A stretch of 7,107 nt of DNA, from the NCBI GenBank assembly GCA_026981635.1, contig JALSIF010000002.1, forward strand, positions 1 through 7,107, written 5' to 3'. The translations under genes and the position numbers were made by a program. Positions 5,060 through 6,531 of this stretch are shown in pieces; the first letter of the stretch is position 1, and every line of letters starts with the position of its first letter. Below the pieces are notes generated by a model, which saw nothing but the letters and a program-made list of their open reading frames with translations, was not told the DNA's origin and searched no databases. Source of the DNA: JALSIF01 sp026981635 [NCBI: bacterium]. GTDB taxonomy: Bacteria > 4484-113 > JALSIF01.

Positions 5060-5443
5060 CTAGGCTTTTTCCGCCTGTGGCCCTATCTCCAGGAGCTGAT
5101 TAACCTTCTCCCGCAGATAGTCCTCACTATGGACTCCGGTGGTCCTGCCCACTCGCCTGCCTGCCCGATAGAAGAGCAGGGTAGGCACAGTAAGCACCCC
5201 CAGGCGGTAGGCCGAAGTGGGAAACTCGTCAACATTGATCTCCAGGAACTCCACCAGCCCCTCAAACTCCTCCCGGAGCTGGCGTACGATGGGCTGGAGA
5301 TACTTGCTGGGCGCCGACCAGGGGGAGGTAAAGACCACGATTACCGGCCCCTCGTGGTGCTGGAGGAAGCTCTCCAGCGCCCCGTCCACCAGCTCAGCCT
5401 GGGAGATGGCCATCGGGGATATCTTAACCGCCCGGGGAGGCAT
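5060..5443 (-). CDS. Cysteine-free thioredoxin-like protein
   Basis: 127 aa from the ATG at 5443, or 117 aa from the ATG at 5413; the shorter form matches normal thioredoxin length. Neither has a clear ribosome site. The fold is plain: strand VIVVF at 34-38, active-site turn PWSAPSKYLQP at 41-51, FLEINVDEFP at 66-75, cis-proline TVPTLLFYRAGR at 85-96, a strand with TGVHSEDYLREKV and a final helix. Both active-site cysteines are serine (W42-S-A-P-S-K47), the buried Asp26 position is Val37, and there is no cysteine anywhere. The two serine codons, TCG and AGC, are not single-base misreads of the same Cys codon, so a sequencing error is unlikely. It is first in the operon with iscS and mnmA. It cannot do dithiol exchange; a scaffold, regulator or holdase role in the manner of CnoX-type thioredoxin folds is inference. 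Confidence 0.9.
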   Translation of the reverse strand: MPPRAVKISPMAISQAELVDGALESFLQHHEGPVIVVFTSPWSAPSKYLQPIVRQLREEFEGLVEFLEINVDEFPTSAYRLGVLTVPTLLFYRAGRRVGRTTGVHSEDYLREKVNQLLEIGPQAEKA

Positions 5444-5453
5444 AGGGGCAGGG

Positions 5454-5491
5454 AAAGAAATAGAAACGCCCCGCGGGAGCCGGTCAGCGGG
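5454..5491 (-). terminator. Intrinsic-terminator-like end of the small RNA
   Basis: On the minus strand a GC-rich hairpin is followed by an interrupted T tract, GTTTCTATTTCTTT (5454-5467). The hairpin can be local (CCCGC 5487-5491 with GCGGG 5470-5474, 12-nt loop), or the role can be taken by the closing stem of the rod, which also ends at 5468. The tract ends only about 10 nt before the ATG at 5443, so incomplete termination here would feed the thioredoxin-iscS-mnmA operon. Confidence 0.5.
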
Positions 5492-5620
5492 AGTTCACCT
5501 CGAGCCTGGCCTACCAGGTGGGTGTCCAGCGGAGGGCCCACGGGCACACTCCGTCGAGGACCCCCTCATGCTCGGGTGTTGGCTCCGTGACTCTTCCCGC
5601 CTTTCGCACTCCGCAGGGCT
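5460..5620 (-). ncRNA. ssrS: Structured small RNA, probable 6S RNA
   Basis: No ORF covers this gap, and on the minus strand it folds into one long rod. Starting at the predicted start site, bases 5609-5619 (GCCCTGCGGAG) pair with 5468-5479 (CTCCCGCGGGGC) with one bulged C. Then come 5595-5600 with 5487-5492 (GCGGGA/TCCCGC), 5587-5590 with 5495-5498, and 5581-5585 with 5502-5506 (GAGCC/GGCTC). A central bubble follows; its 3' side can form a small hairpin at 5505-5518 (CCTGG-TAGG-CCAGG). The apical arm is 5558-5563 with 5520-5527, 5549-5553 with 5530-5534 (CGGAG/CTCCG) and 5542-5545 with 5536-5539. Paired ends, a central bubble with a 3'-side hairpin, a long apical arm and a size near 155-160 nt are 6S features; 6S binds sigma-A-type RNA polymerase holoenzyme as an open-promoter mimic. 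In Bacillus subtilis, bsrA (6S-1) lies a few genes upstream of yrvO-trmU, similar to this order. Pairings were found by eye. An attenuator leader for the sulfur operon is the main alternative. Confidence 0.55.
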
Positions 5621-5626
5621 AGAGGG

Positions 5627-5632
5627 ATTATA
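5627..5632 (-). promoter_or_regulatory. -10 box (TATAAT) for the small RNA
   Basis: A perfect TATAAT on the minus strand, standing out in GC-rich surroundings, 30 nt after the FHA gene stop. Start of transcription would fall near 5619-5620, exactly where the 5' strand of the closing stem begins. No good -35 hexamer is present at 16-18 nt spacing (the 17-nt position reads CCTCGT), and there is no TGn extension immediately before it. Confidence 0.6.
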
Positions 5633-5661: not shown

Positions 5662-6531
5662 TCAGGCTGAGCCTTTATCGCCCTCCGGCATTACCACCCT
5701 GAGACCGCTGTCACCCACCTCAATCAGGTCCCCATCGGCAAGCAGCCTAGCCTCGCTTATGCGGCTGCCATTCACGTAGGTGCCGTTTGTGCTGCCCAGG
5801 TCCCTGATCTCAAGCCCCACCGGGGACAGGCTGAACTCAGCGTGGAGACGGGATACCCGAGGGTCGTTCAGCCTTATCTCCACCCCCTCACCCCGACCCA
5901 GTCGCCAGGGTCCCTCTCCGGTGAGGGGGAAAAAGCTGCCCGCCTGCTCTCCTGCCACCACCGAGAGACCTCGCCGTACTGCCTGGGCCGGCCCCTCCGC
6001 CTTATGGGCGGCTGGCTCCCCCGCTGGAGACTCCGCTGTGGGTGGGGAGACTTGCCCAGGAAAGGCTGTCTCACCCGGCGAGGGGCTGGAAGCCACCCCA
6101 GCCGGTGGGGGGGATACCGGAGCAGGCGCTGCCTTCTCCTTGGGTCGGGGCGGCGGGGGTGCACCCCCTACCCCAGCGTGAAGCTCCCGGAAGGCCAGAA
6201 AAAGGTTGAGCAGGGCAAAGACCAGCACGCCCGCTGCCGCCAGGATGAAGCGGTCGCTAACCTGAAGCACCACCTCTCCCCTGACCATCCGGTAGCCGCT
6301 GATGAGAAAGCCCAGCTCCCCCAGCATCCCCAGGTTGACCAGCAGAAATCCCCAGCCCGCCTCCTCCATCAGGCTCCAAATCAGGAGTAGCACCAGCCCG
6401 CCTCCCAGCATGAAGAGGGCGGCCAGGCGGGGCTCATGTAGTATCACCTGGGGTTGGGCAAGACTGGCCAGAAGCTCATAGCCCGAGACCGATACGGCGG
6501 CAACCAGAAAGAGACTGGAGAGCCACTTCAC
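5662..6531 (-). CDS. Membrane protein with a C-terminal FHA domain
   Basis: 289 aa, GTG start at 6531 behind a purine-rich GAGGAGGAAG site (6541-6550) at slightly long spacing. The N-terminal half has four probable membrane helices: about 3-24, 36-54, 58-80 and 95-115. Residues 121-186 are a Pro/Ala/Ser-rich linker, probably cytoplasmic. Residues about 205-282 are a forkhead-associated domain with the conserved set: GR at 212-213, SRLH at 227-230, RDLGSTNGTYVNG at 243-255 and the closing GDLIEVGD. FHA domains bind phosphothreonine peptides, and the Arg213, Ser227 and Asn249 positions needed for binding are intact, so a partner phosphorylated by a Ser/Thr kinase is expected; no kinase is in the window. 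It follows secA after 47 nt on the same strand and may be co-transcribed. Any link to protein export is only positional. Confidence 0.88.
   Translation of the reverse strand: MKWLSSLFLVAAVSVSGYELLASLAQPQVILHEPRLAALFMLGGGLVLLLIWSLMEEAGWGFLLVNLGMLGELGFLISGYRMVRGEVVLQVSDRFILAAAGVLVFALLNLFLAFRELHAGVGGAPPPPRPKEKAAPAPVSPPPAGVASSPSPGETAFPGQVSPPTAESPAGEPAAHKAEGPAQAVRRGLSVVAGEQAGSFFPLTGEGPWRLGRGEGVEIRLNDPRVSRLHAEFSLSPVGLEIRDLGSTNGTYVNGSRISEARLLADGDLIEVGDSGLRVVMPEGDKGSA

Follow-up and report, generated by a model that had tools for sequence, protein, structure and literature searches.

A 6S RNA gene and its recurring cysteine-poor thioredoxin-fold neighbour in an uncultured bacterial phylum

Background

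6S RNA is a common bacterial RNA that mimics a promoter and restrains RNA polymerase. As the part of PMC8876501 devoted to its cycle describes, the RNA imitates a promoter and is copied into pRNA from the 5' side of its central bubble; helix P2 is unwound, and either a 3' bubble hairpin or a collapse helix forms. The same part describes an E. coli-type release with a 3' bubble hairpin and, for 6S-1 of B. subtilis, a hairpin together with a collapse helix. Two sequence features of the pRNA start are given in the relevant section of PMC8414754, namely a conserved adenine next to the start and, for E. coli, A. aeolicus and R. sphaeroides, GG as nucleotides 4/5 of the pRNA (the positions also being given as 5/6 or 4/5).

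As a case study, we consider here a stretch of 7,107 nucleotides (hereafter the window) from the bacterium JALSIF01 sp026981635, contig JALSIF010000002.1, in which the genes follow the order end of secA, FHA, 6S, thioredoxin-like gene, iscS-like gene and mnmA. Compared with the 6S / SsrS family of Rfam (RF00013), the RNA of the window shares the full-length match, the closing stem, the central bubble, the apical arm, the promoter-like box and a possible rearrangement between P2 and the bubble; it differs by a shorter apical arm, with 159 nt matched to a model of 187 positions, and the phylum to which it belongs differs in that half of its members score under the Rfam cut-off.

Results and discussion

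Identification of the 6S RNA gene

An earlier note on this DNA, made from the letters alone, had named a 6S-like RNA in a 218-nt gap, the limits of which were confirmed, the FHA gene ending at 5662 and the thioredoxin-like ORF starting at 5443. The cmsearch run that it had proposed, with RF00013 on the minus strand, bore out the name: the match extends from 5622 to 5464 over model positions 1-187 of 187, with 51.1 bits (E 3.2e-8), a modest score that lies above the curated gathering score of 46.4 bits. Within the window no Rfam family other than RF00013 exceeds its gathering score, and the locus is the only match to RF00013 at E <= 0.001 in the source genome (1,745,230 bases, 85% complete). 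The runner-up family in the window, for which the gathering score is 80, reached 19.8 bits, and the remaining matches, far under their own gathering scores, were set aside as chance. A coding reading of the gap was also rejected in view of the covariance evidence, the ORFs that cross it either overlapping the neighbour genes or lying in other frames. No match to the gap sequence was found in the plasmid collection. The features of the locus, all on the minus strand, are as follows.

5464 to 5622, minus strand: 6S RNA gene (RF00013 match and homologues in the phylum)
about 5620 to 5464, minus strand: probable transcript of about 157 nt, its start placed from the -10 box
5627 to 5632, minus strand: -10 box TATAAT of the putative 6S promoter, from the sequence, with no recognisable -35
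5605 to 5619, minus strand: closing stem, 5' strand (minimum-free-energy fold and double changes in 7 of the 15 pairs of helix 1)
5468 to 5482, minus strand: closing stem, 3' strand, then a T-rich stretch (sequence, terminator scan, minimum-free-energy fold and covariation)
5581 to 5585, minus strand: helix P2, 5' strand GAGCC, with its partner GGCUC at 5506-5502 (RF00013 match, minimum-free-energy fold and covariation)
5578 to 5591, minus strand: predicted pRNA template, start opposite C5578, 14-mer GUUGGCUCCGUGAC (by position and by the features given in the relevant section of PMC8414754)
5566 to 5577, minus strand: 5' side of the central bubble, predicted partner of the P2 3' strand and beyond when the template is occupied (RF00013 match and constrained folding)
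5520 to 5564, minus strand: apical arm, shorter than the Rfam consensus (RF00013 match and minimum-free-energy fold)
5505 to 5518, minus strand: possible 3' central-bubble hairpin CCUGG-UAGG-CCAGG, mutually exclusive with P2 (alignment read by eye and constrained folding)

The gap almost certainly holds a bona fide 6S RNA gene, with a putative sigma-70-type promoter of its own and a predicted pRNA-driven release; at the sequence level, this identity is supported by the covariance model, by compensatory evolution, by the promoter-like box and by a conserved location. As a kind, the RNA is ordinary, being a further 6S RNA of a family already known.

Direct reading of the minus strand found the perfect TATAAT that had been claimed at 5632-5627, and a promoter scan of the window returned no full sigma-70 promoter and no -35 hexamer. 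When the box was scored as the best hexamer having A as its second and T as its sixth letter, a -10-like box was found upstream of the stem in 10 of 10 homologues (raw count), 7-12 nt before the first conserved C of the stem. It agrees with TATAAT at six of six positions in three of them, at five in five and at four in two, and in both of the latter TTGACA stands 17 nt further upstream.

The minimum-free-energy fold of 5622-5464 is a single long rod of -79.6 kcal/mol; because 7 of 200 dinucleotide shuffles folded as well or better (z -2.06), the fold by itself is modest evidence. In this fold the closing stem starts at 5619/5468, just where it had been drawn, with one base of the 3' strand bulged among its first 12 pairs, and it is followed by the expected T-rich end, where the terminator scan gave one site compared with 0.2 in shuffles.

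Homologues in the phylum

The sample of the phylum comprised ten genomes, all of one class. RF00013 matched eight of them at E <= 0.001, five above the cut-off, and the two without a match (G002 and G004) both belong to family f3. In a lax repeat of the search G002 remained without a match, and the two found in G004 (15.9 and 11.4 bits) were not convincing. We then built a phylum-specific covariance model from the eight matching sequences and ran it on ten chosen genomes, which yielded one candidate of 29.6 bits in G002 (E 0.002) and one of 23.6 bits in G004 (E 0.05). Each is preceded by a perfect TATAAT and has a thioredoxin-like match downstream on its own strand, at 62 nt in G002 and at 19 nt in G004, the first ATG after the candidate lying at 61 and 57 nt, respectively. 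The phylum model also matched antisense strands, with 18.5 bits in the window and 23.6 bits at locus L016, as a rod structure may give, and because of these scores the G004 candidate, at 23.6 bits, rests on its position. Both candidates are probably 6S RNAs, and 6S RNA joins the likely gene set of this whole uncultured phylum.

Conservation of the rod by compensatory changes

Covariation was examined in two alignments. For the eight RF00013-matching sequences, aligned plainly with MAFFT, RNAalifold gave a structure of 32 pairs, 11 of which carry double changes, with 23 double-change cells compared with a shuffled mean of 8.6. For all ten sequences, again aligned with MAFFT, 27 pairs were evaluated against 500 shuffles that preserve the make-up of the columns but ignore the relatedness of the sequences: the 28 double-change cells (shuffled mean 11.0) and the covariation score of 0.399 (0.219 shuffled) were both reached by 0 of the 500. 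Two weaker measures gave 11 of 27 pairs with a double change compared with 7.5 in shuffles (4 of 500 as high) and 29 further pair types compared with 24.4 (14 of 500 as high). The proportion of paired cells was 90.2% for eight sequences (41.0-50.4% in slid versions) and 91.7% for ten (41.0-52.9% in slid controls). The structure has an advantage in this comparison, having been read from the very alignment on which it was scored. In the ten-sequence alignment, sliding it by +2 left 17 double-change cells.

The rod with its closing stem, central bubble and apical arm is therefore kept by compensatory changes, none of which falls in the four pairs of P2. In the closing stem, the one for which the earlier note had predicted such changes, both sides have changed in 7 of the 15 pairs of the ten-sequence alignment. 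Helix P2 has no double changes; variation in two of its four pairs is limited to one side, and in two of the ten sequences of that alignment three of the four do not pair.

The thioredoxin-fold neighbour

In nine of the ten phylum genomes a thioredoxin-fold gene lies directly downstream of the 6S RNA gene on the same strand. In G009, no thioredoxin-like gene was found within 1.9 kb downstream of 6S. The copy in the window is as follows.

5060 to 5443, minus strand: thioredoxin-fold gene, CxxC replaced by SAPS (PF00085, E 9.8e-16), its start perhaps at 5413

Genomes G000 to G008 contain 20 thioredoxin-like matches (2-3 per genome), all of which were aligned, 9 of them linked to 6S and 11 unlinked. 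The CxxC motif is kept in all 11 unlinked copies; both active-site cysteines are replaced in seven of the nine linked ones (SAPS, SKPS, SRPA, SKPA), the exceptions being G004, with one cysteine replaced, and G002, which keeps both (CSAC). In a tree of the 20 copies one branch parts linked from unlinked (95/90, 94% of bootstrap trees), with a warning of long branches. When copies from outside were added, the linked set needed two changes, and a single one in only 18% of bootstrap trees; one origin is therefore not established.

By eye, TAAGAT is seen 7 nt before the internal ATG at 5413 of the window's thioredoxin-like gene (5411-5426, minus strand), and TATAAT 7-8 nt before the thioredoxin-like ATG in G003, G004 and G006. 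Boxes placed so close to the ATG suggest leaderless mRNAs.

The constant position of the RNA directly upstream of this gene, in nine of the ten phylum genomes and in two of these nine with an ATG only 11 nt past the matched end, could also be explained by a structured leader of the thioredoxin-like gene, that is, a cis-regulatory element or attenuator and no free 6S RNA. Such a leader is very improbable: the RF00013 match is of full length and above the gathering score, in G009 the RNA occurs with no such gene over the following 1.9 kb, and the -10-like boxes seen by eye in the window, G003, G004 and G006, 7-8 nt ahead of the thioredoxin-like start codon, suggest separate transcription.

With the 6S RNA itself belonging to a known family, the new element is the cysteine-poor thioredoxin-fold gene that recurs beside it, an observation of gene order and sequence by which the encoded protein becomes a candidate partner of a global regulator. 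A search of the literature, most subscription papers lying outside it, found no report of linkage between 6S and thioredoxin genes; a survey by Wehner et al. in 2014 may bear on the question. That 6S RNA and the cysteine-poor protein might form a functional pair in the same pathway of polymerase restraint or stationary phase, perhaps through binding of the polymerase, of sigma or of 6S, seems to us a rather unlikely reading.

Predicted pRNA and refolding

Read by position from opposite 5578, the predicted pRNA of the window is GUUGGCUCC. With the starts in the homologues placed by alignment, GG occurs at predicted pRNA positions 4/5 in eight of the ten (exceptions G002 and G004) and the adenine beside the predicted start also in eight (exceptions G005 and G001).

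From what is described for the 6S family, we infer polymerase binding, pRNA synthesis, release and stationary-phase expression for the RNA of the window. The RNA would be transcribed from its own sigma-70-type promoter and would fold into a rod of about 157 nt, the open centre of which would mimic a melted promoter and occupy the housekeeping RNA polymerase holoenzyme. Once nucleotides are available again, the polymerase would copy a short pRNA from opposite 5578 through GAGCC; this copying would unwind helix P2, the freed 3' strand would form the bubble hairpin and the collapse helix, and their formation would release the polymerase.

A hairpin on the 3' side of the bubble had been considered in the earlier note, and this point was borne out in part, such a hairpin being possible by sequence at 5518-5505 but missing from the unconstrained fold. 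In the window it has 4 bp and is formed only with the template blocked. Counterparts read by eye from the alignment in family f4 are CCUGU/ACAGG and CCUGC/GCAGG. With the template blocked, the window and three f4 genomes all fold a 3' bubble hairpin of 4-5 bp (CCUGG/CCAGG, CCUGU/ACAGG and, twice, CCUGC/GCAGG) and, in the same fold, a helix in which the 5' side of the bubble pairs with the 3' strand of P2; in this they resemble 6S-1 (bsrA) of B. subtilis. Elsewhere, blocking the template produced a 10-bp hairpin on the 3' side of the bubble in G001, which competes with P2 as in E. coli 6S (ssrS), and a 6-bp hairpin in G007 and G008.

The P2 of the unconstrained fold is replaced on blocking in the window, G001, G007 and G008, and a local alternative already stands in place of P2 in the unconstrained folds of G009, G006, G002 and G004; refolding is mixed in G003, and G005 is without a clear P2 or alternative. 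The energy of the template-blocked fold was reached by 7, 3, 3, 17, 7, 23, 6, 40, 38 and 4 of 200 shuffles of the bubble letters in the ten sequences, and the number of paired bases, attained by 22-176 of 200 shuffles, is unusual in none of these sequences. This test on predicted folds favours the 6S release mechanism, as supportive evidence and not as proof.

An RNA of the Ms1 type, which would bind core polymerase without sigma and which is described as structurally related to 6S in the relevant part of PMC9130861, can be discounted almost entirely, no family but RF00013 passing its gathering score in the window and the predicted pRNA start features being kept in eight of the ten homologues.

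Gene neighbourhood of 6S

The FHA-domain protein (PF00498) encoded between secA and 6S (5662-6531, minus strand) shows, by eye, hydrophobic stretches in its N-terminal half, and no relative of it was found among viral contigs. A weak PseG-like match lies at 1727-2761 on the plus strand, with 44 bits against an NCBIfam cut-off of 153.55 bits. A contig search with the IscS of the window returned 28 loci at 32-43% identity from mixed phyla.

In Bacillus, bsrA lies near yrvO/trmU, and the earlier note had seen a parallel in the iscS and mnmA genes of the window. This parallel did not hold across the phylum: over ten loci with flanks of unequal length, iscS directly follows the thioredoxin-like gene in three (the window, G003 and G006) and mnmA is found in the window only. 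G002 has an iscS match 3.65 kb upstream of 6S. Among 25 6S loci of other phyla, examined with longer flanks, none gave an iscS match and a single one gave a weak mnmA match, 4.4 kb away. The Bacillus-like neighbourhood thus characterises this genome or a single lineage; the linkage of 6S with iscS and mnmA is not conserved. As to the immediate neighbours of 6S, rarA is close by in the case of B. subtilis 6S-1, according to the relevant part of PMC8414754, whereas the window has a thioredoxin-like gene; and ygfA is the neighbour of 6S in many proteobacteria, as stated in the corresponding part of PMC9130861, whereas in the window 6S lies between the FHA and thioredoxin-like genes.

6S loci outside the phylum

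The RF00013 search was extended to 192 genomes, of which 93 match at E <= 1e-6. Using the thioredoxin profile, we examined 104 loci besides that of the window, with stronger and weaker RF00013 matches: 9 from the phylum and 95 from outside it, the latter in 94 genomes (G067 has two). Most loci had flanks of at least about 1.5 kb, and some flanks ended at contig borders, as in G090, where the 6S match touches the contig end.

A thioredoxin-like gene lies directly downstream on the same strand in 3 of the 95 outside loci (raw count), namely in G037, G061 and G130; a thioredoxin match 5.9 kb from 6S in G055 was left out of this count. Chance adjacency of 6S and thioredoxin should be rare, because genomes G000 to G008 carry only the 2-3 thioredoxin matches each given above. 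G037 and G061 belong to one phylum, in which two of the three genomes examined have 6S matches, and at both loci (L113 and L126) the gene encodes two tandem thioredoxin-like domains without CxxC (SGLC; DHEP), the next frame being rarA-like (named by eye). The 6S-linked thioredoxin-like gene of G130 (L148) retains CKPC, and the frames that follow it resemble, by eye, aroQ and a peptidase.
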